A DNA stretch of 64,000 nucleotides from Paracoccus onchidii (GTDB lineage: Bacteria; Pseudomonadota; Alphaproteobacteria; Rhodobacterales; Rhodobacteraceae), in assembly GCF_028294535.1 (NCBI RefSeq), contig NZ_JAQBIE010000001.1, positions 62,001 through 126,000 of the forward strand, read 5' to 3'. The position numbers and the translations under genes are program-made. Shown here piece after piece: positions 28,440-48,969 of the stretch (position 1 is the stretch's first letter; each line of letters starts with the position of its first letter). The notes below the pieces were generated by a model that was given only the letters and a program-made list of their open reading frames with translations, searched no databases and was not told the DNA's origin.

Positions 28440-28958
28440 CTAGCGACGCCCGTCCAGCCTGACAAAGTCCATCACACTGCCCAACCCCGGCTGAACGTCG
28501 GCCCAACTGTCCACCTGGAAATCGACGACCAGCGTCGCGGCGGTTGGATATCTGCGAAAATCGGGGTCCAGCGGCGGGCGGGCCGGCAACAATGCCGCGA
28601 ATTCCGATATGCCCGGATTATGCCCGATCATCATGACGGTGGGATGGCTGGCGGTGCGCAGCATTGCCAGCATTTTCTCGGGGCCGGCATGGTATAATCC
28701 GGGTTCCAGCCGCAGCAAGGGGCGCACCTCCAGCGGGGCACCTGCAACCATTGCCCATGTTTCCTGCGTACGTTTTGCCGTGGAACACAGGATCTCTTCC
28801 GGTTCGTATCCGCGACTGGCCATCCAGTCCCCCAACGCCAATGCTGAGCGACGTCCACGGTCGTTCAGCGGCCGATCATGATCCGCCAGGGTGGGATCAT
28901 CCCATGCCGATTTGGCATGGCGCGTCAGGATCAATCTCTTGTGTCCGATCGGTGTCAT
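28440..28958 (-). CDS. SixA-like phosphohistidine phosphatase
   Basis: 172 aa. Catalytic motif LTRHAKSAWDD near residues 11-21 and second histidine in MMIGHNPGISEFA. The length and the RHAKS form match the SixA branch, which removes phosphate from histidine-containing phosphotransfer proteins, although other roles are possible. It starts with ATG overlapping the stop of the ferredoxin-like gene (ATGA) and is the last gene of the rpmH-to-argB block. Confidence 0.85.
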   Translation of the reverse strand: MTPIGHKRLILTRHAKSAWDDPTLADHDRPLNDRGRRSALALGDWMASRGYEPEEILCSTAKRTQETWAMVAGAPLEVRPLLRLEPGLYHAGPEKMLAMLRTASHPTVMMIGHNPGISEFAALLPARPPLDPDFRRYPTAATLVVDFQVDSWADVQPGLGSVMDFVRLDGRR

Positions 28959-38743: not shown

Positions 38744-38820
38744 GGACCCGTAGCTCAGCTGGATAGAGCACCAGACTACGAATCTGGGGGTCGGGCGTTC
38801 GAATCGCTCCGGGTCCGCCA
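38744..38820 (+). tRNA. tRNA-Arg (anticodon ACG)
   Basis: Full cloverleaf: acceptor GGACCCG / CGGGTCC, D arm TAGCTCAGCTGGATAGAGCA, anticodon stem CCAGA / TCTGG with loop CTACGAA, T arm GGGCG-TTCGAAT-CGCTC, and encoded CCA at 38818-38820. The accessory region begins directly after it. Confidence 0.96.
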
Positions 38821-39564: not shown

Positions 39565-40326
39565 TTATTCGATGGGGATCAGTAGAACGTAGATGTCGTC
39601 GCTGGGCGTCATGATCGTCGTACGCGCCTTCGCGCGGGTCACACTGACGCGAAAATTCTACCCGACCTGCGTCATCGCATCTGAATTGATATTGCCGCGG
39701 ACAATACGATCCGGGTTGCCGACGATTTTCCCCTTCACTCGCTTTGGCCAGCCTTCGAAGATGATGACTTTGTCGAATTGTTTCCCCTTAGCCTTATGCA
39801 TGTTCATAACGTTGACCCCAGACCCGGGCTTGTGCGACATGGCGAAATGCTCTTGGATGAAAGCTTGTCGCATCACGGTAAGCGCATTTTTGTAGCCACG
39901 GTTGTCGCGCCAATCCTGTGAAAGGCTTTGACGTAACTGCGTGCCGGGTTCGAGAAGACGAACATTGCGGACTTCCTGCGCCACTTCGACCAGCCGCTTG
40001 CAAGCGGCGGTCTCGAGGACAGTTCGAACGGCCGTACAGTCGGCATCAGGTTGTCCAGTCAAGGCAATCGCCGTTGCAGCCCAGTAAACGTCAAATGTGG
40101 CTTGGAAAACACTTTCCGTGGCGGTGCCTTGCCCTTGGTGAGGCATTCTTCCATTTTTTCAGCGCGGCCTTGTAACGTGCTGCTTCAGCCAGATGGCTCT
40201 TCGTTGGTGCGGTGCCGCCGCGTCCCGCGAAAAAGCTACAAGGTGCATCGACAAATTCATCGAAACCGCTACCGCCCCCTGCGCTGTTGCAAAAGGAAGG
40301 TGATCACTTCTGCAGCAAGGATCGGT
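39565..40326 (-). pseudogene. Broken UvrD/Rep-like DNA helicase (C-terminal part)
   Basis: Three frames together spell the end of a UvrD-like helicase. The parts are AEAARYKAALKKWKNAS (about 40150-40200), then a long piece 40146-39658 with QEVRNVRLLEPGTQLRQSLS, MNMHKAKGKQFDKVIIFEGW and GKIVGNPDRIVRGN. The last piece, NFRVSVTRAKARTTIMTPSD, ends at a stop at 39567-39565 and is helicase motif VI. At least two frameshifts are needed. The N-terminal ATPase half is missing at the IS3 fragment. Helicases of this type often pair with an OLD-family nuclease in Gabija-like defence loci; no such partner remains here, so this is only a relic. Confidence 0.72.
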
Positions 40327-40343: not shown

Positions 40344-40440
40344 CTAAACACCTGCCTCGTTCAGTTTCTGCTGTCTGATCTCGAGATCAACGGGCGACAG
40401 CATGCCGTTGCTCGTGTGCTTGCGCTTCGGGTGGGCGCAC
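40344..40440 (-). mobile_element. IS3-family transposase orfB, C-terminal fragment
   Basis: The minus strand reads HPKRKHTSNGMLSPVDLEI then RQQKLNEAGV and a stop (TAG at 40346-40344). This is the usual end of IS3-group integrases. About 30 codons remain. The element's terminal sequence continues to about 40327, where the helicase remnant begins. The upstream part has been replaced by the IS256 fragment. Confidence 0.75.
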
Positions 40441-40925
40441 GTGTCCTGCGGTCAGCACACCGTTGTCGCTGCGGCGATATGGCAGGCCTTCAACCAGCCA
40501 GACCGCGCACATGTCAGCGAAACGTGGCGTAAGGTGGCCGCTCAACTGCGGCCCCGCTGGCCCACACTCGCCGAGCTGATGGACGTAAGCGAACACGATG
40601 TCCCGGCCTACATGTCCTTCCCTCGTCAGCACCGGACGAAGCTTCATACGACCAATCCCATTGAAAGGTTGAACAAGGAGGCGAAGCGTCGCGCAGATCT
40701 CGTCGGGATCTTCCCCAACGAGGCATCCATCATGCGCCTAATCGGCGCCGTTCTCTTCGAGCAGAACGACGAATGGCAGACCGTCAGCCGCTACATGATG
40801 GTCGAAGCCTTCGCCCAGATCGACAATGAGGAGATCGACCCCATTCTTCGCAATCCAACGAAACCCGCCTGATCATGACCTCAGGCCATCCGGGAAATTA
40901 CACCTACTTGACGGACACGACCAGA
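40441..40925 (+). mobile_element. IS256-family transposase, C-terminal fragment and right end
   Basis: The frame 40441-40872 encodes the last ~143 residues of a mutator-type transposase: RKVAAQLRPRWPTLAELMDV, HRTKLHTTNPIERLNKEAKR and GIFPNEASIMRLIGAVLFEQ. The N-terminal two thirds are gone. Downstream, AAATTACACCTACTTGACGG-ACACGACC (40902-40929) resembles an IS256 terminal repeat. It is not functional as it stands. Confidence 0.8.
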
Positions 40926-41194: not shown

Positions 41195-42376
41195 TCAGTC
41201 CAGTGAAACCAGTATTCGGGCGATCTTGACGGGGTCGTATTTCGGTTCATTTTTCTGACGCAGCGGCAGGCGCAGGCAGGGGATTTCGTGCAGCCTGGCC
41301 ACCCTTGCGCATTCCTCCTTGGGGACAGAGGTGTCGCAAAGGATATGGGTCATGAAATCGGTCGGGCTTGCGTCTGGACCTGCGTCAGCGCGCAGTGGCG
41401 CAAGGATGGCGGCCACCTGATCTGCAAGATCAAGTCCCAGGGCCTCGGGGTCTTGGCCAAGGCTGGGAAGATATGCTTTGGGAACGTGGCGGGCGGCGAT
41501 TGCGGTGCCGACGCCTGCCGGCAAAAGGTTGGCAATGACGCTGGAATAGAGGCTGCCCGGCGGGTAGCAGATCGCGTCGCTTTGCTCGATCAGTTTTCGG
41601 TTGCGTTTGGGCAGGGGCACGTCGGCGGGCAGGATCTCTTGGGTGCCGTCGCTGAGGAAGCAGCGCGTGATCGGGCTGTCGATGGGCGGGGATTCCTTCC
41701 CGCTGATCAATCGCTGGCTGACGATACGCCGGCCATCCGCCAGATCGACGCCCAGATGGAGGTTCGCGTCCACGATCGCCCGCACGGTTCCGCGAACATC
41801 GACCATCTTGGACATCAGAAACAGCACGGGCTCCAGCTCTCTGCCGTGGCCAAGATAGCCGCCTGCAAGGATCAGGTTTCCAATGCTGGCATTGCGATAG
41901 TCGAAATCCGCAGGCACCTGCGCGGCGAAATCGCCAAGCAAGGTCAGGATCAGCGTGCGCATCGGCTTGGCGATTGCTGAGACAAGCGGATGTTTGCCCG
42001 AGATGATCCTTGACACTTCGGCGCCGAGCTTCTTGCACGAGGCATCTTTTGGCAGGCGATGGCTGAACAGGGCGTAGACATCTGGCTGGCCCAGAACGGT
42101 TTCATCCGCCAAGGCCATCAAGCGGCTGCGCAGATCTCCGACTGCGGGCATGTCAAATGCCAGGCGCAGGGTCTGGGAACTGCCGCCGCTGTCGAACGGT
42201 GTGATCAGATGCATCGAGTTGAACGTATATTGCTTCAACTGGCGCGAAATGCCGTTCAGGGCGCTGCCGCCGCTGAAGAACAGGATCCGGGGGCCATGAT
42301 GGGGCGCTGCATGGGATCGGGCGACGCGCAGATCGTCAGGCAGGCGCAATTCACGCTGGACACGCATGATTGTCAT
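41195..42376 (-). CDS. GAK system CofD-like protein
   Basis: 393 aa. The N-terminal nucleotide-binding motif ILFFSGGSALNGISRQLK (31-48) and the following PFDSGGSSQTLR (60-71) place it in the CofD/YvcK superfamily. CofD itself transfers a phosphoryl-lactyl group to a deazaflavin and YvcK binds UDP-sugars. A separate subfamily is named for the GAK system in TIGRFAMs (from memory). ATG 42376 has GGAG eleven bases upstream and fits this family; longer readings run into the divergent gene. It is transcribed away from the other cluster genes across an 80-base shared promoter gap. Reaction unknown. Confidence 0.85.
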   Translation of the reverse strand: MTIMRVQRELRLPDDLRVARSHAAPHHGPRILFFSGGSALNGISRQLKQYTFNSMHLITPFDSGGSSQTLRLAFDMPAVGDLRSRLMALADETVLGQPDVYALFSHRLPKDASCKKLGAEVSRIISGKHPLVSAIAKPMRTLILTLLGDFAAQVPADFDYRNASIGNLILAGGYLGHGRELEPVLFLMSKMVDVRGTVRAIVDANLHLGVDLADGRRIVSQRLISGKESPPIDSPITRCFLSDGTQEILPADVPLPKRNRKLIEQSDAICYPPGSLYSSVIANLLPAGVGTAIAARHVPKAYLPSLGQDPEALGLDLADQVAAILAPLRADAGPDASPTDFMTHILCDTSVPKEECARVARLHEIPCLRLPLRQKNEPKYDPVKIARILVSLD

Positions 42377-42456
42377 GAAAATTTCATCTCCGGCGGCTGA
42401 TTGGCGAGGGATTGGCGCTTGGATTTTCCGGCTTTCGGGGCGCATAAGAAGATATG
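42377..42456. promoter_or_regulatory. Divergent promoter of the GAK cluster
   Basis: This 80-base gap between the CofD-like gene (minus) and the NUDIX gene (plus) must hold both promoters. It contains GGAG for the minus gene and AAGAAG (42446-42451) for the plus gene. No clear operator was seen. A shared control region implies that the two arms are co-regulated. Confidence 0.5.
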
Positions 42457-42909
42457 ATGTCCGAGGAATACATACGCCCAACCGTACGCGCTGTCATCCG
42501 CAAGGGTGAACTGGTTCTGGTTCAGGTCAAGAAGGGGGCGAAGGGGCAGCAATACCTGACATTGCCGGGCGGACGCCAGGAACACGGGGAAACCATGCAG
42601 GAATGTCTTGGCCGCGAATGCCTGGAGGAAATCGGGATTGCGCCGGGGATCGGCGAATTGCTGCATGTGGCAGATGTGTTTCGCCAGCGGTCTGGCAAGC
42701 CGCGCCATCTGGTCGAGATGCTGTTCGCCTGCACGGTGCCGGACACCTATGTCGCAGCCATGGGATGCAAACCCGACAAGCGCCAGATCGCGACGAAATG
42801 GGTGGATCTGTCCAGGGATGGTGCTTTGTTCCGGCCACGTTACGATCAGGCGCTGACGCGGAAAGATCGCCTGATCTATCTGGGAAGGCTTGTGCATGGC
42901 ACGCCCTGA
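42457..42909 (+). CDS. NUDIX hydrolase of the GAK cluster
   Basis: 150 aa. A complete NUDIX box is present, GGRQEHGETMQECLGREC-LEEIGI (residues about 28-51). It has G-x5-E-x7-RE and the EE pair that binds Mg2+. The family cleaves nucleoside diphosphates linked to another moiety. ATG 42457 has better spacing from AAGAAG than ATG 42454. It is the first gene of the plus-strand arm and overlaps the kinase gene by 14 bases. Whether it is a fixed GAK component or a local addition is unknown. Confidence 0.88.
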   Translation: MSEEYIRPTVRAVIRKGELVLVQVKKGAKGQQYLTLPGGRQEHGETMQECLGRECLEEIGIAPGIGELLHVADVFRQRSGKPRHLVEMLFACTVPDTYVAAMGCKPDKRQIATKWVDLSRDGALFRPRYDQALTRKDRLIYLGRLVHGTP

Positions 42910-44527
42910 CGCTGTTGGCGAAAACATGTCGTTCCTGCTGGCCGAGCTTGACGGCCAACTGACCCGGCTGGTGTCCTATATGCAGGATCCGGGGGCGGAA
43001 ACGGCGATGCAACTGGTACAGCGGGCGGGGTATTCCAACAATCTGTCGGCCCGCGTCCGCAAGGCTTGCTTGGCCGGCATGATGCGATCCAAACAACCCG
43101 AGGCCGCTCGGTTGCGATTGCAGGGAATTGACACGATTGCCCGCAATCTCGACCTGATCTCGCGGTTGGGGCGGCGGGCAGTGGAACATGCCGAACGCGC
43201 GGAGCGTCAGAAGCTGTTGCGCACCGATACCTATGTCGCCCCGGTCAAGCTGGTGCGCAAGACAATCGCGCGAATCCCCGAGGCGATGGAAACGAGTGAC
43301 AGCAAGCTGGCTGTCGAGATCGGGAAATCGCGCGGTCAGCTGGGCGTGTTTCACGATCGGCTGTTTCGCACCTATACACGTGACATGCAGGGCACCAAAC
43401 ATGTCGAGGATCTTGCCCATGGCCTGCTGACCCTGAACGAGGTTTTCCGCATGGGCGAGGCGCTTTCGGGCATCAGCGAAGCCTTGTTGTCGATCAATAT
43501 CGGGCAGGTGGTTCAGTTCGACCGCTATTTCACCTTGCGCAGCGTTCTTGGGGGTGGAAAACGCGATGAAGAGGTCAGGTTGCAACCTCTGGCCGAAACC
43601 CGGTCGGGCAGCGCGATTTCCAGCGTCAACCTGCGCAATGCCAAGGGTGAAACCGTTGCTGCGGTGTTCAAGGATGGCGACCGGCGCAAGGTCAAGCAGG
43701 AGCGCGTGGGCGTCAAAAGCTGGAATTCGGTTTATCCCGGCCTTGCCCCCGAGATCCTGTCCTATGAACGGCATGGGAAATCGGCGGCGTTGCTGATCGA
43801 GCATCTCGAAGGGGAGACCTTTGAAGACATCGTGCTTGGCGGCAGCGATGATGCTTTGGCCAGGGCCCAGAAGGCGCTGCACAAGACGGTTGGCGACATC
43901 TGGCGCCAAACCCGAACGGACGAACCCTCTGAAATGAAATCGATGGCGCAATTGTCCGGACGGATGAAGGATGTCTATCGGCTTCATCACCGGTTCGCGC
44001 AGGGCCGCAAATCTGTCAACGGGACGAAGATTCCGTCCTTTGATGATCTGATCGCGATGGCTGCACGACGCGAAGAAAAGATCATCGCGCCATTTTCGGT
44101 CTATATCCACGGTGATTTCAATCTGGACAACGTGATCTATGACGCTGTCGGTAAAAAGATTCGGTTCATCGATCTGCACCGGTCCCGCTATATGGATTAC
44201 GTTCAGGACGTTTCGGTGTTCATGGTGTCAAACTATCGGCTGCAGGTGCTGGACCGGGGCACTCGTGCGCGGATTTCAAGGGTTGCAACCGACATGCATG
44301 CCATGGCGGGAAAATTCGCCAGGCGACACAAGGACCCGACATTTGAATACCGGCTGGCGCTGGGACTGGCGCGATCGTTTGCCAGTTCGACCCGCTTTGT
44401 CGTCGACAAGGGGCATGCGCGCCGGATGATCCTGCGCGCGCGCTTTATTCTGGAATCGGCGCTTGCTGTCCCCGAGGGCAAGGAGGCGCGTTTCAAACTG
44501 CCTATGGGGATGCTGTTCAGTGACTAG
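42896..44527 (+). CDS. Two-domain protein: PhoU-like helical N-terminus and APH-type kinase
   Basis: 543 aa. Residues about 10-215 are almost entirely helical and resemble PhoU-type bundles (for example QGIDTIARNLDLISRLGRRA). Residues 250-470 form an aminoglycoside-phosphotransferase-like kinase. It has K259 in AAVFKDG, the Brenner motif H405-G-D-F-N-L-D-N412, and the metal-binding D426 in FIDLHRS. The tail to 543 is helical. It should phosphorylate a small molecule or a protein. ATG 42896 lies 7-8 bases after GGGAAGG inside the NUDIX gene. It ends overlapping the ATP-grasp gene by 8 bases. Confidence 0.82.
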   Translation: MARPDAVGENMSFLLAELDGQLTRLVSYMQDPGAETAMQLVQRAGYSNNLSARVRKACLAGMMRSKQPEAARLRLQGIDTIARNLDLISRLGRRAVEHAERAERQKLLRTDTYVAPVKLVRKTIARIPEAMETSDSKLAVEIGKSRGQLGVFHDRLFRTYTRDMQGTKHVEDLAHGLLTLNEVFRMGEALSGISEALLSINIGQVVQFDRYFTLRSVLGGGKRDEEVRLQPLAETRSGSAISSVNLRNAKGETVAAVFKDGDRRKVKQERVGVKSWNSVYPGLAPEILSYERHGKSAALLIEHLEGETFEDIVLGGSDDALARAQKALHKTVGDIWRQTRTDEPSEMKSMAQLSGRMKDVYRLHHRFAQGRKSVNGTKIPSFDDLIAMAARREEKIIAPFSVYIHGDFNLDNVIYDAVGKKIRFIDLHRSRYMDYVQDVSVFMVSNYRLQVLDRGTRARISRVATDMHAMAGKFARRHKDPTFEYRLALGLARSFASSTRFVVDKGHARRMILRARFILESALAVPEGKEARFKLPMGMLFSD

Positions 44528-45401
44528 GAAAATCGGGGTGATTGGGACCCCAGGGAAATGGTCCACCGAGGCGTTGGCCGATGCGTTGGAAAAGCGCACG
44601 GGTTTCCGGCAGGTGATCGACATGTCACAGGCGGTCCTGGACCTCGAGGCGGGAACGCTGTGCTGCGGAGATGTCGATTTGTGTCAGCTGGATGGCCTGA
44701 TCCTGAAGAAGATCGCGGAAGATTACAGCCCGGATGCCCTGGACCGGCTGGAAATGTTGCGAATGGCGCAGTTCGCGGGGGTCCGTATCTTCAGCCCCGC
44801 CGTGAATGTTCTGCGCCTCATGGATCGCCTTGCCTGCACGATGACGCTGCGCAGCGCGGCAATTCCCATGCCTGCCACGACCATAACCGAATCGGAACAT
44901 GTGGCGCATGAAACATTGGACAGATATGGCGCCGCCGTATTCAAGCCGCTGTTTTCCACCAAGGCCCGCGGCATGCTTTTGCTGGAAAGCGGGGCGGAGG
45001 ATGCCAGCCAGCAGATCGCCATGTTCAGGAAGGCCAATCCGGTCATGTATATCCAGAAGAAGCTGGACCTGTCCGGCGAGGATCTGGGAATGGTTTTTCT
45101 GAATGGCGAATATCTCTGCACCTATGCGCGGGTAAGCCAGAATGACAGCTGGAACACGACGATCCATTCCGGCGGAAAATATGCGCCATATGATCCCGCG
45201 CCCGAATTGATCGAACTGGGACGCCGCGCACAGGCGCCTTTCGGGCTGACCTTTACCACCGTGGACATCGCCCTGACGGCAGATGGTCCCATTGTTTTCG
45301 AGGTCTCGGCCTTTGGTGGGTATTCGGGTGCCCAGAAGGGATGTGGAATCGACGCCGCGGCGCTGGTCGTGGATCATGTGCTGAACGAGGTGTCGCGATG
45401 A
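44520..45401 (+). CDS. GAK system ATP-grasp enzyme (RimK-like)
   Basis: 293 aa. The fold landmarks are FKPLFSTKARGM (141-152, the ATP-binding lysine and glycine-rich loop), IQKKLDLSGEDLGMVFLNGE, VDIAL (about 238-242) and FEVSAFGGYSG (250-260, metal-binding end). ATP-grasp enzymes of this group ligate a carboxylate through an acyl-phosphate to an amine, often an amino acid, as RimK does. The start is GTG at 44520 (GTGACTAGGAAA), eight bases inside the kinase gene. It overlaps the HprK-like gene by four bases (ATGA). Substrate unknown. Confidence 0.87.
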   Translation: MTRKIGVIGTPGKWSTEALADALEKRTGFRQVIDMSQAVLDLEAGTLCCGDVDLCQLDGLILKKIAEDYSPDALDRLEMLRMAQFAGVRIFSPAVNVLRLMDRLACTMTLRSAAIPMPATTITESEHVAHETLDRYGAAVFKPLFSTKARGMLLLESGAEDASQQIAMFRKANPVMYIQKKLDLSGEDLGMVFLNGEYLCTYARVSQNDSWNTTIHSGGKYAPYDPAPELIELGRRAQAPFGLTFTTVDIALTADGPIVFEVSAFGGYSGAQKGCGIDAAALVVDHVLNEVSR

Positions 45402-46474
45402 ACTCGGTTCACGAGGTTTTGGAAAATCTGGATCTCGGTCAGGCCATGTCGGCCGATGCGTTCCACATGCAGGTCGGCCATATTGGCCTGACCGTGCATT
45501 GCCCAGAGCCGTTGCGCAGCGAACTGATGGAATATTTCGACGGTAATCTGTCTCAGCAGCCGGGTCAGATCACCGTGCATCTGCTGCCCGGACAGCAACT
45601 CGATCAGCCGGTCGCGTGGATCGACTGGCAGCGAGAGCCGGGCAAGGCAGGTCGCAAGGATGCGATCCTTGATCTGGATGACGGACGGCTGATCAAGAAG
45701 CTGCGCAGTGGCGTGACGTTCTTGCAGGCGCGCGATTGGGCGATAGCGTTCGGCCCGCTGACACAGAATGTCAGCACGGTGATCAATTTCATCAACACTC
45801 AGATCCTGTCGGCATGTCTTCGCGAGGGCTGGCAGCTTTGTCATGCCGCTGGCGCGACGCGACAGGGGCGGACATTGGCGATTTCGGGTTTGTCGGGCGG
45901 CGGAAAGTCCACGTCTATACTGCGCATGATGGATATGGACGGCATGCAGTTCCTCAGCAACGATCGCATCCTTGTGCATCCGGGTAACCCGGCGCGGGCG
46001 CTGGGTATTCCGAAATACCCACGTATCAATCCGGGCACGATTCTCGGGAATCCGCGCCTGCATGGCCTGTTGTCCGCCGGACGCCGGGCCGAGTTGTCGC
46101 ATATGCCGCCGGATGAATTATGGCAGCTGGAAGAAAAACATGACCTGATCGTGCCAGACATCTATGGACCTGATCGCATCTGCCTGGCAGCGCCCCTGAC
46201 GGATTTCTGGGTGCTGAACTGGGGGCATGACCAGCAGGGCGATACGCGGATTCTGCCCGTGTCACTTGATGGGCGTCCGGACCTGTTGGCGGCGATGATG
46301 AAAAGCGCCGGCCCGTTTCATCAGTATCGGAACGGCCATTTTGAAGCCAACGGAGTCGAGCCGGATCCGATGCCGTATCTTCAGGCATTGCGACATGTTC
46401 GTGTTCGCGAGGTGTCGGGGCGGATAGATTTCGACAAGCTGGCTGATGAAGGGCGACGGCTTTTCGATGGCTGA
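45398..46474 (+). CDS. HprK-related kinase B of the GAK system
   Basis: 358 aa. The P-loop GLSGGGKST (164-172) is preceded by WQLCHAAGA, as in HPr kinase/phosphorylase, and followed by FLSNDRILV, which corresponds to the metal-binding acidic motif. The N-terminal 130 residues are specific to this subfamily. True HprK phosphorylates serine 46 of HPr, but no HPr or PTS gene is near, so the target is something else. It is translationally coupled to the ATP-grasp gene and overlaps the phosphatase gene by eight bases. Confidence 0.87.
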   Translation: MNSVHEVLENLDLGQAMSADAFHMQVGHIGLTVHCPEPLRSELMEYFDGNLSQQPGQITVHLLPGQQLDQPVAWIDWQREPGKAGRKDAILDLDDGRLIKKLRSGVTFLQARDWAIAFGPLTQNVSTVINFINTQILSACLREGWQLCHAAGATRQGRTLAISGLSGGGKSTSILRMMDMDGMQFLSNDRILVHPGNPARALGIPKYPRINPGTILGNPRLHGLLSAGRRAELSHMPPDELWQLEEKHDLIVPDIYGPDRICLAAPLTDFWVLNWGHDQQGDTRILPVSLDGRPDLLAAMMKSAGPFHQYRNGHFEANGVEPDPMPYLQALRHVRVREVSGRIDFDKLADEGRRLFDG

Positions 46475-47153
46475 GCTAGGTTATTTCGCATTCTTGCGTC
46501 ATGGGGAATATCATCAACGCGCCGACGCGCCTTCGGCCAGGCAACCATTTGCGCTGACACCCCAAGGGGGCAGGCAGGCCCGGTTGGGCGCGGATCAGCT
46601 GTTGGGGATGATGGTGCAGCATGACCTGCGCCCTGCAAGGCTGATACATTCATCGCGCCAGCTTCGGGCATGGCAAACCGCGCGCGAACTGCAGATGCGC
46701 CTGTGCGACAACGGATACGACATCGATGATATTGCCCAAAGCTCGGGGCTGGCGGAGCGCGGGCTTGGTTCGGCGGCGAATCTGACGGTTGGCGAAATCG
46801 AAGCGGTGCTGGCCGCCGATCCGCGATATGGTGCCCCGCCGACAGGATGGAAGTCCGACAGCGATTACTGCCTGCCGCTGGAAGGGGCGGAAAGCCTGGC
46901 CGATGCCGGCCGACGGGTCGCGGAACATATCCGGCGGATCGTGCAACCTGGGCTGTTGACCATCATGGTCGGGCATGGGGCGTCCTTTCGCCACGCCTGC
47001 CACGAGCTGGGTCTTTTGCGGCGCGACGAAATTGCCCGGCTTTCGATGTTTCACGCCCGGCCGTTACTATTTTGTCACGATGCCCGTGGTAGTTGGCGGC
47101 ACTTGGCCGGGGAATGGAAGATCAGGACCCAACATGAGGTTTCGATCGACTAG
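46467..47153 (+). CDS. Histidine phosphatase family protein of the GAK cluster
   Basis: 228 aa from ATG 46467; ATG 46446 is an alternative. The phosphohistidine motif AFLRHGEYHQ lies near residues 8-17, and the second histidine in MVGHGASFRHACHELGLL near 167. A SixA/GpmB-like fold is expected. It may reverse one of the phosphorylations made by the two kinases in the cluster. The last codons precede a TAG that closes 27 bases before the metallophosphoesterase start. Confidence 0.82.
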   Translation: MAELGYFAFLRHGEYHQRADAPSARQPFALTPQGGRQARLGADQLLGMMVQHDLRPARLIHSSRQLRAWQTARELQMRLCDNGYDIDDIAQSSGLAERGLGSAANLTVGEIEAVLAADPRYGAPPTGWKSDSDYCLPLEGAESLADAGRRVAEHIRRIVQPGLLTIMVGHGASFRHACHELGLLRRDEIARLSMFHARPLLFCHDARGSWRHLAGEWKIRTQHEVSID

Positions 47154-47180
47154 GAGCCGGCCGCATGGAAGGGCCTGAAC

Positions 47181-48485
47181 TTGGACTATGCGACTGATCA
47201 CCGCCAACCGGTTTCACGATTGTTGCCTCCGGTTTTCGATGCCGAGGCATTGCTTGGCGATCTGCCCCGCGAGATCCAGCCTTGGCCCGAGGCTGTCAGC
47301 CAGCCCCAGATTTCAGCCTGTCTTGCGCGGGTGCGCGAACATGGCGGATGGAACTGGCCCGACAGACCGGTGATTTTCGTCTCTGACCCGCATGCCGATG
47401 CCGAAGGCTTTCTGCGATCCCTGTCCGCGGCGGGGGTGATCCGGCGCAATGGCTTGCAGATTGCCCTGACCAGCTTTGGGCGAAAGGCGCGCATCGTTCT
47501 GGGTGGGGATGCGCTGGACAAGGGGCCAAGCAATCTTGCGTTGCTTGATGCATTGGCCGCGCTGCGCGAGGCGGGTGCGGATCTGCATATTCTGGCGGGT
47601 AATCACGACCTGCGCATGCGGATGGCCATCGCGGCATTGCGGGGACCTCGCGATGCCTTGACCGAGCATTTGTTCGTGCGGATGGGGCGCAAGATACTGC
47701 CAGCCCTGCGCGAGGTTCTGTGTCGCTTTGTCACCCCGTCGGACATTGCGGCATTGCCCACCGAGGATGCCTGCCGTGCCGCGTTGATGCCGGGGCCGGA
47801 TTGGCCGCAGCGTTTTGGCCAAGCCGCCCGCCACGAGCTGCGCGCCACGGTGATCGCCAAAGAAACCGGCAAGCTGAATGAGAAACTGCTGAAATTTGAT
47901 CGCGAATGCGCGCGATCCGGCATGTCCTATCGTCAGATTTTGGCGTCTGCGTTGAAATGTCATGAGATTTTTTTCGAGCCGAGCGGCATCTATGCATGGT
48001 TCTATGATCACATGGATGTCGTCGCGCGTGCGGGATCGATCCTGTTCGTGCATGCGGGCCTGTGTGACGACATGTGCGAAATGCTGGTCGGGCAGGGTGC
48101 CGAAGCCGTGAACGCCCGATACCGTTCCGAGGCCGAGCGCGCTTCGCTCGGTTTCTATTTCGGTCCCGTCGCCAATCTCGTGCGGACGAAATACCGTGCG
48201 TCTGACTGCGAGCTGACCGATCGCGGTGTGACGGCATTGCATGGTGGCGGGATTCACATGGTGGTTCAGGGCCATGTGAACAATCATCAGGGGCAGCGCC
48301 TGCTGGCCAAGCGCGGCCTGTTGCATCTGGAAGGTGACGTGACGCTGGATCGCGCTTCGCGTCGATCCGAGGGGTTGGACGGGATTGGTGCCGGTGCGAC
48401 CTTGATTTTTCCAAGCGGCGATGTGATCGGTCTTAGTCGGGATTATCCATGGGCCAAACATTTTGCCCCGGAACGCATGACATGA
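47181..48485 (+). CDS. Calcineurin-like (PPP-family) metallophosphoesterase of the GAK cluster
   Basis: 434 aa. Metal-binding motifs of serine/threonine-type phosphoesterases are complete: DPHAD (69-73), GGDALDKG (108-115), GNHD (140-143), and VHAG and GHVNNH in the C-terminal half. About 100 extra residues lie between GNHD and VHAG. It starts with TTG at 47181, the only good start: GGAAGGG sits six bases upstream and the frame is closed by the previous gene's TAG. The substrate could be a phosphoprotein or dinucleotide. The specific target is unknown. Confidence 0.83.
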   Translation: MDYATDHRQPVSRLLPPVFDAEALLGDLPREIQPWPEAVSQPQISACLARVREHGGWNWPDRPVIFVSDPHADAEGFLRSLSAAGVIRRNGLQIALTSFGRKARIVLGGDALDKGPSNLALLDALAALREAGADLHILAGNHDLRMRMAIAALRGPRDALTEHLFVRMGRKILPALREVLCRFVTPSDIAALPTEDACRAALMPGPDWPQRFGQAARHELRATVIAKETGKLNEKLLKFDRECARSGMSYRQILASALKCHEIFFEPSGIYAWFYDHMDVVARAGSILFVHAGLCDDMCEMLVGQGAEAVNARYRSEAERASLGFYFGPVANLVRTKYRASDCELTDRGVTALHGGGIHMVVQGHVNNHQGQRLLAKRGLLHLEGDVTLDRASRRSEGLDGIGAGATLIFPSGDVIGLSRDYPWAKHFAPERMT

Positions 48486-48501
48486 AAATCAAAGGTGTCC
48501 A

Positions 48502-48774
48502 ATGAGTGATTCGAACAAACGCTTTACGCACGAATCGCTTGCCGACCCCAAGACGATCAAGACTCTGCTGTCATCTTTGGCAAAGGGCTTTTCCAAGGGG
48601 CAGATGACCCTTGGGGATGACAAGGATGAACTGGTCCTGAAAACTGCGGGCCTGATGAATGTGCGTATCAAGGCCGAACGCGAGGACGGGCAGTGTGAAG
48701 TCAGTCTTCGGGTGTCCTGGTCGGACCCCTCCACGCCCGCGCAGCGCAAGGGTTCGCCGCGTATCGAAAGCTGA
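48502..48774 (+). CDS. Amphi-Trp domain protein of the GAK system
   Basis: 90 aa. It matches the amphi-Trp domain, named for alternating amphipathic strands and a conserved tryptophan: VRIKAERED, then CEVSLRVSW with W73. The N-terminal half is basic and helical. It starts 16 bases after the phosphoesterase gene with an AGGTG site and ends the operon. A small, non-enzymatic member among enzymes makes it a good candidate for the modified protein or carrier, which is my inference. Confidence 0.8.
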   Translation: MSDSNKRFTHESLADPKTIKTLLSSLAKGFSKGQMTLGDDKDELVLKTAGLMNVRIKAEREDGQCEVSLRVSWSDPSTPAQRKGSPRIES

Positions 48775-48969
48775 TTGCCGGTTCGGGCGATTGCCGGTGG
48801 CTGGCGTCGTGCAAATATCTGATGGCGGGGCGGCGTGCGGCGGTCGCGGCCAAACTATTGGATTGGCAGTTTAATCAAACGGGACTTGCGCCAAGGGCCG
48901 GTTCGCGGCGATACCGAATGTTTGACCCTGTCATGCGCCTGTCGGCCCGATGCATCCCGGAGGATATTC

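Follow-up and report, generated by a model that had tools for sequence, protein, structure and literature searches.

Positions 41195-48774 of the 64,000-nucleotide stretch of Paracoccus onchidii DNA analysed here, hereafter the window, hold an intact copy of GAK, a widespread gene system that is named but uncharacterised. Comparison of this cluster with its relatives reveals that the unit kept by selection is not the set of eight genes present in the window but a core of four, encoding a PhoU-like domain fused to an APH-type kinase, an ATP-grasp ligase, an HprK-related kinase B (HprK-B) and the small amphi-Trp protein. Three features are new: a ninth member in which a SixA-like histidine phosphatase is fused to a NUDIX domain (SixA-NUDIX), an association with genes for CHAD-domain and ParA-type proteins, and PhoB-box-like repeats in the leaders of the cluster. 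Because PhoB-box-like leaders and the CHAD-ParA linkage are found together with the PhoU domain of the kinase and with Na/Pi cotransporter homologues as neighbours, we tentatively propose, at a probability a little short of even, that GAK is a self-contained, sporadically inherited phosphate-starvation module for phosphate handling that works with polyphosphate. This provides a first concrete function to test for GAK, and no such link had been proposed in the initial annotation of the window. Although the genes are named in genome annotation, no description of their function was found in the literature searched: full-text searches retrieved no paper in which GAK, the HprK-related kinase or amphi-Trp is named, and when the kinds of enzyme were searched in combination, nothing apparently concerning the cluster appeared among the matches listed, judging by titles and the beginnings of abstracts.

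The four-gene core, its optional members and their distribution

The cluster consists of eight uninterrupted open reading frames (ORFs), the CofD-like gene being on the minus strand and the other seven, which overlap or nearly touch, on the plus strand, as the initial annotation had described:

41195-42376, minus strand: GAK CofD-like protein (TIGR04357), optional member; frame open to 42481
42454-42909, plus strand: NUDIX hydrolase with a canonical Nudix box (PF00293, 6e-13), optional member
42890-44527, plus strand: PhoU-like domain fused to an APH-type kinase (PF01636, 1.5e-10; HGDFNxDN and IDL motifs), invariant core
44520-45401, plus strand: GAK ATP-grasp ligase, RimK/MptN-like (TIGR04356), invariant core
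45398-46474, plus strand: HprK-related kinase B (TIGR04355), predicted chain resembling ATP-dependent phosphoenolpyruvate (PEP) carboxykinase, invariant core
46446-47153, plus strand: histidine phosphatase, branch 1 (PF00300, 7e-13), RHG and GHG conserved; missing or degenerate in some relatives
47181-48485, plus strand: PPP/metallophosphoesterase-type phosphatase (PF00149, 8e-5), SDxHAD, GGDxxDKG and GNHDxR conserved; missing or degenerate in some relatives
48502-48774, plus strand: amphi-Trp protein of 90 amino acids (TIGR04354), invariant core

From the sequence, the probable starts are GTG 44520 for the ATP-grasp gene (instead of 44463), ATG 45398 for HprK-B and a position near ATG 42376 for the CofD-like gene.

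In a hidden Markov model search, four of the products exceeded the cut-offs of the NCBIfam GAK models, namely the CofD-like protein (TIGR04357, 478 bits, cut-off 340), the ATP-grasp ligase (TIGR04356, 436 bits, cut-off 300), HprK-B (TIGR04355, 286 bits, cut-off 200) and amphi-Trp (TIGR04354, 59 bits, cut-off 31), which bears out their earlier assignment to GAK families; the other four match general Pfam families only (NUDIX, APH kinase, histidine phosphatase and metallophosphoesterase). The PhoU-APH kinase, which has no GAK name, is likewise core.

The ATP-grasp protein has at least 493 relatives; 80 of these were taken as loci and 12 further loci were added, giving 92 (L and G numbers denote loci and genomes below). 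Of these, 76 are well flanked, having 4.5 kb or more of sequence before the ATP-grasp gene and 6 kb or more after it. The same neighbourhood recurs, beyond chance, in the 80 fetched loci, several of which are ended early by contig ends, and the linkage across genomes that the initial annotation expected is thus present. The PhoU-APH kinase, ATP-grasp, HprK-B and amphi-Trp genes are each found in all 76 well-flanked loci. The histidine phosphatase is present in 69 (one of them a fragment), the PPP phosphatase in 73 (four of them fragments), NUDIX in 46 and the CofD-like gene in 42; CofD-like is thus absent from 34 and NUDIX from 30, at odds with the complete eight-gene set originally envisaged. 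Seven loci (L052, L053, L058, L061, L066, L070 and L082) have both phosphatase genes deleted or decayed with the four core genes intact, PPP remnants lying immediately before amphi-Trp in five of them, and L115 is without the histidine phosphatase only. Since the core is invariant while the phosphatases, NUDIX and CofD-like genes get lost, it is the core that selection maintains as a unit. The seven phosphatase-loss loci come from related marine Rhodobacterales and form a natural deletion series. The distance matrices of the eight families correlate (r 0.74 to 0.90), a value that is descriptive only, being uncorrected for species relatedness.

In 38 of 93 loci the SixA-NUDIX fusion, an optional member of about 320 residues, covers more than 80% of its model; it is encoded either between HprK-B and the histidine phosphatase or beyond the CofD-like gene. 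Among 48 genomes tested, two-domain matches occurred in three, all of them GAK-bearing; a fourth GAK genome (G156) gave a partial match, and the 35 GAK-free genomes gave single-domain matches only. Some members lack the RHG motif in the SixA half. We considered the fusion as a substitute for the lost phosphatases, as it is present in six of the seven loss loci, but those loci are related and therefore permit no firm inference on replacement. A polyphosphate link was also sought through separate non-GAK SixA and NUDIX homologues, but the two neighbourhoods inspected (L127, L130) gave nothing. In the window, a SixA-like histidine phosphatase gene at 28448-28936 on the minus strand, about 12 kb before the cluster, encodes a product with 31% identity to the SixA half of the fusion.

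We surveyed 299 genomes of the phylum with the family profiles at NCBIfam cut-offs. ATP-grasp exceeded its cut-off in 12 genomes and HprK-B in 13, all 12 being common to both; in the additional genome, G140, the cluster is interrupted by a contig end. The CofD-like protein was above cut-off in six genomes, five of which are among the 12, so that seven of these 12 have no CofD-like match above cut-off; its gene is distant from the cluster in G158 and G142, and G006 carries it without other GAK genes. Amphi-Trp exceeded its cut-off in 19 genomes: 12 belong to the 15 in which GAK genes or fragments occur, and seven do not. It is present in 11 of the 12 ATP-grasp genomes, the exception being G156, whose contig stops inside the cluster; no match was found in G156, G033 or G140, and in the sequence visible for G140 (87% complete) amphi-Trp was not seen downstream of the phosphatase. 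Non-GAK amphi-Trp genes were examined for guilt by association in seven loci, in three of which the gene was marked by the profile, and no consistent partner emerged: by sequence reading the neighbours are tsaD and gpsA in two loci, a Ppx/GppA-like gene in one and pntAB-like genes in another. In L154 and L156, again by sequence reading, amphi-Trp directly follows a gpsA-like gene, which a tsaD-like gene precedes. Since the cluster occurs in one of 27 genomes of the genus and is plasmid-borne in five records, GAK is a trait that is mobile or readily lost.

PhoB-box-like leaders and the CHAD-ParA association

The N-terminal half of the kinase scores 22.1 bits against the PhoU model PF01895, just under the cut-off of 23.5, and a profile of the PhoU-APH family finds the solved PhoU structure 4q25 (2.9e-9) together with 4feu (2.2e-5). 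Because of this PhoU domain, GAK leaders were scanned for PhoB boxes, the only named motif tested there, common 8-mers also being listed. Leaders were scored out of 14 against the consensus CTGTCAT-N4-CTGTCAT. The E. coli PhoB half-site is given in PMC4415409.

PhoB-box-like repeats are concentrated in the GAK leaders of some lineages. Scores of at least 11 were reached in 14 of 77 non-redundant GAK leaders, compared with 20 of 535 other upstream regions from the same loci (Fisher p 1.4e-5) and 19 of 770 shuffled sequences. The exact repeat TGTCA-N6-TGTCA occurs at 10 sites in 91 loci, and six of these fall within the 300-base GAK leaders, where 0.16 would be expected (Poisson 1.8e-8); nine other spacings gave 29 sites, one of them in a leader. 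The six leader sites belong to five loci (L060, L105, L115, L117 and, with two sites, L116) and two more sites precede genes located just upstream of the kinase in L119 and L093. The sole off-spacing leader site is TGTCA-N8-TGTCA at position 7874 of L054. Right of the cluster in the window, a PhoB-box-like sequence scoring 12 is located at 48928, in the start region of a permease ORF.

Ten of 94 loci encode a CHAD-domain protein (PF05235, 4e-41), nine of them together with an adjacent ParA-type ATPase, and among 946 neighbouring genes CHAD and ParA are the only two recurrent families that are well represented both in alphaproteobacteria and in the other group. Five of the loci (L034, L044, L047, L049 and L090) are classed as alphaproteobacterial from record titles and similarity, L109 and L111 bear gammaproteobacterial titles, another class accounts for L119 and L121, and L095, whose record is titled a haloarchaeal MAG, completes the set. 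The arrangement varies, with CHAD, ParA and the kinase in that order on one strand, upstream, in L119 and L044, the CHAD-ParA pair between the PPP phosphatase and amphi-Trp in L121, and ParA, CHAD and CofD-like on the opposite strand in L090, L049, L034, L095 and L111. Such joining to GAK, repeated and independent, is the behaviour expected of functional partners. Two of the records are probably misnamed or misbinned: L034 is titled Enemella evansiae and L095 Halobacteria archaeon, their ATP-grasp proteins being 78% and 62% identical, respectively, to that of the window.

In the genome survey, this class of CHAD protein scored above 280 bits in six genomes, four with GAK (G116, G156, G140 and the window's own genome, G000) and two without (G102 and G212), which corresponds to 4 of 15 genomes with GAK genes or fragments versus 2 of 284 others (Fisher p 5.9e-5); when every kind of CHAD domain is counted, 100 of the 299 have one. 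The CHAD-ParA pair of G000 is located on another contig, beside a CYTH gene. CHAD domains bind polyphosphate specifically (PMC6537752), and proteins that carry them localise to granules of polyphosphate (PMC9239181). Outside the alphaproteobacteria, a Na/Pi cotransporter homologue (PF02690, 1.2e-45 for the L109 gene) lies near GAK in eight loci, and a CNNM-type transporter lies near the cluster in eight.

Several observations weigh against the proposed link to phosphate and polyphosphate. At a score of at least 12 the leader excess is weaker (6 of 77 versus 10 of 535, p 0.009), and strong Pho boxes are confined to a minority of leaders, partly related pairs such as L115 and L116, which are from one genus. 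The candidate in the window's own leader (42370-42387, score 11) is not above background, given seven sites of 11 or more in the 64 kb, and no box was found upstream of the CHAD gene of the same genome, where the best score is 8. CHAD lies near GAK in only 10 of the 94 loci, and most of the 15 GAK genomes lack this class; the threshold of 280 bits was chosen with the scores already known, and exclusion of the two genomes that were sources of the profile reduces the association to 2 of 13 versus 2 of 284 (p 0.010).

These associations may instead be lineage-specific side stories of a small-molecule pathway with no special link to phosphate storage, an explanation that we regard as unlikely. It is consistent with their restriction to a minority of loci, and an APH kinase, a PEP carboxykinase-like kinase, an amide ligase, NUDIX and phosphatases would suit ordinary metabolite chemistry. 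However, it does not readily accommodate the joining of CHAD-ParA to GAK in several arrangements and in distant classes, nor the restriction of the repeat enrichment to the spacing of a PhoB box.

If GAK is the phosphate-starvation module that we favour, a shortage of phosphate would lead PhoB to activate the operon. Its writers would be the amide ligase and the two kinases, which would phosphorylate one target and add an amino acid or similar group to it; this target would most likely be a small phosphorylated compound that is kept at polyphosphate bodies or employed together with them. Removal of phosphate would fall to exchangeable erasers, namely the two phosphatases (of histidine and PPP type), NUDIX and SixA-NUDIX, and amphi-Trp would be an obligate non-catalytic partner serving as carrier, coat or reader. 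CHAD would tether the system to polyphosphate, while ParA would position or partition the bodies. A more specific version, which we consider improbable, is that GAK is an unrecognised phosphate-storage system, in which a phosphorylated amide compound made by the kinases and the ligase would be deposited with polyphosphate in bodies. Amphi-Trp would coat or read these bodies, CHAD would tether and ParA partition them, PhoB would control their construction and the exchangeable phosphatases would mobilise the store.

Enzymes of the cluster and their candidate targets

The motifs for phosphoryl transfer and phosphate removal recognised in the initial annotation are conserved in the family alignments. 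The kinase family retains the APH motifs HGDFNxDN and IDL, the histidine phosphatase family RHG and GHG, and the PPP phosphatase family its metal motifs, together with a weak match to ApaH (2dfj, 9.8e-4). The nearest structure to the ATP-grasp ligase is RimK (5zct, 9.3e-19), and MptN (131 bits) and, weakly, CofF were also matched. Residues R204, D249, E261 and S263 are found in 93 of 93 sequences, all of which have ExS as metal motif and not the usual ExN. A conserved Arg in amide-forming ATP-grasps is described in PMC4431377, its equivalence to the Arg kept in GAK being our own reading.

HprK-B has H149, K170, S171, T172, D189 and R190 in all 89 aligned rows, and N188 (87 of 89) at the position of the first Asp of the DD of HprK. 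Its predicted structure (pLDDT 94.9) aligns in VIA-align over the whole chain with the ATP-dependent PEP carboxykinase 2pc9_B (Z 15.8, 296 residues aligned, root-mean-square deviation (rmsd) 4.8), and its C-terminal domain with HprK 1kkl_C (Z 13.4, 136 aligned, rmsd 2.6). Since the whole chain aligns with PEP carboxykinase and the C-terminal domain alone with HprK, the model speaks more for a small-molecule kinase than for a strict protein kinase of the HPr type, though not conclusively, since some HprK-like kinases act on peptides (PMC8498205). With 12% identity, and 32 columns covered by hhalign, the likeness to PEP carboxykinase is a resemblance of fold and not family membership; N-terminal residues considered as equivalents of the carboxykinase active site were left unused, as only those 32 columns aligned and the equivalences follow from spacing. 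Neither is HprK-B a canonical HprK, as TIGR00679 is absent among its matches at E 0.01 and the solved HprK 1jb1 gave E 0.56; the profile-profile match to HprK (93%, E 3e-7) denotes relationship, not membership.

The amphi-Trp protein is predicted to form one helix and four strands (pLDDT 86.6, pTM 0.66). The model found no match in the PDB (Foldseek best E 0.64, VIA-align best Z 2.2), which does not make it a new fold. An H-x-S motif precedes the single helix, with H10 in 84 and S12 in 83 of 85 sequences, S12 being Ala in the other two, and the C-terminus is variable.

This motif, and the presence of amphi-Trp in every well-flanked locus even where the phosphatases are lost, would suit a protein phospho-relay, in which HprK-B and perhaps the APH kinase phosphorylate amphi-Trp, the ATP-grasp ligase adds an amino acid, the phosphatases reset the protein and the YvcK-like (CofD-like) protein senses nucleotide sugars. 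HprK phosphorylates HPr and Crh, RimK modifies a protein, and YvcI of Bacillus subtilis belongs to the NUDIX family. The genes yvcI, glmR and crh lie in one operon of that species (PMC6171935), and HprK-like kinases that phosphorylate peptides are known from lasso peptides (PMC8498205). Against such a relay stand the loss of S12 in two amphi-Trp sequences, the variable C-terminus, unlike that of a RimK target, the absence of any structural match linking amphi-Trp to HPr and the PEP carboxykinase-like whole chain of HprK-B. Moreover, amphi-Trp occurs without GAK in 7 of its 19 genomes, and G140 has HprK-B, SixA-NUDIX and both phosphatases without an amphi-Trp match, though this genome is only 87% complete. 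We consider the relay the main alternative, though a rather unlikely one, to the small-molecule target of the phosphate-starvation proposal.

The CofD-like protein matches the CofD Pfam family PF01933 (1e-33), its nearest structures being of the YvcK/GlmR group (2ppv 1.5e-32, 2o2z 4.8e-31). Its five PDB matches, which include YvcK 2o2z and UPF0052 entries, contain none named CofD, and the only NCBIfam models of the CofD superfamily matched were TIGR04357 and the YvcK model TIGR01826, the latter at 87 bits against a cut-off of 196. These comparisons place the protein closer to YvcK/GlmR than to CofD, the F420 enzyme, and a nucleotide-activated intermediate of the F420 type, as the initial annotation's suggestion of such an intermediate would allow, is therefore unlikely. 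The building of an F420-like cofactor, with the CofD-like protein transferring a nucleotide-activated phospho-acid and the ATP-grasp ligase adding amino acids, would draw on the PF01933 match and on the relationship of the ligase to MptN and CofF; set against the absence of the CofD-like gene from so many loci and from 7 of the 12 ATP-grasp genomes, its presence without GAK in G006 and its YvcK-type structural relatives, we judge it very improbable. The suggestion survives in another form: since GlmR is a uridyltransferase, that of Listeria being reported to make UDP-GlcNAc from UTP and N-acetylglucosamine (GlcNAc)-1-phosphate and to need D40, D41 and N198 (PMC10128056), a nucleotide-sugar link of the CofD-like protein is possible by analogy.

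Genomic surroundings and comparison with known systems

The flank to the left of the cluster and its leader contain the following features:

38744-38820, plus strand: tRNA-Arg, anticodon acg (ARAGORN, Rfam), context only
39658-40146, minus strand: weak fragment resembling a UvrD-type helicase C-terminus, a mobile-element relic (PF13361, E 0.0017, below cut-off)
40402-40872, plus strand: C-terminal fragment of a Mutator-family transposase (PF00872, 2.5e-27, profile positions 262-378 of 379)
42370-42387, plus strand: PhoB-box-like sequence in the leader (score 11 of 14), not significant in the window

The tRNA-Arg gene that had been placed next to the cluster is real but lies about 2.4 kb away, with the transposase and UvrD_C-like fragments between. 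A clean insertion at the tRNA was considered and set aside. The genes on either side, for a histidine kinase (left) and a permease (right), are not neighbours in relatives: in the nine other genomes of the genus that carry the two on a single contig, 0.3 Mb or more separates them, and an empty site is therefore not demonstrable.

The sporadic occurrence of GAK in the genus and its presence on some plasmids could also fit a role in antibiotic resistance or phage defence, as could the RefSeq name of the GAK kinase of the Tritonibacter mobilis F1926 plasmid (L114, 12359-14008), 'aminoglycoside phosphotransferase family protein'. Such a role is barely credible, since the APH models score far under cut-off (29 versus 205 bits), seven of the eight proteins have no PADLOC match, the NUDIX protein matching only a generic candidate, and a single scan of viral contigs found no ATP-grasp relative among 30 matching stretches. 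The label on the kinase may mislead resistance surveys.

Among known systems, the closest is GAK as already named, all four NCBIfam models being above cut-off in one cluster. Those model matches assign no function, and our analysis differs from the naming in identifying a minimal core in which the PhoU-APH kinase is included and the CofD-like protein is optional, and in adding SixA-NUDIX and CHAD-ParA, both absent from the earlier naming, as optional associates. The individual enzymes resemble, and depart from, characterised families. HprK-B shares with HprK and the HprK-like peptide kinases the fold of the C-terminal domain, the Walker A motif and, by profile, the His and Asp of the catalytic region, but has Asn for the first Asp of DD and a whole chain that resembles PEP carboxykinase. 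The ATP-grasp protein is a sequence relative of the RimK-type ligases RimK, MptN and LysX, from which its ExS in place of ExN sets it apart. Of the residues needed in YvcK/GlmR, the first Asp of the D40-D41 pair is kept in the GAK CofD-like family (D97, 53 of 53) and N198 is probably kept, by alignment reading (N318, 50 of 52), whereas the second Asp is Ser in all 53. Finally, although no core GAK enzyme is a known polyphosphate enzyme, GAK resembles polyphosphate and Pho-regulon systems in its PhoB-box-like leaders and in having genes of these systems (CHAD, CYTH, PhoU and the Na/Pi cotransporter) as recurrent neighbours.

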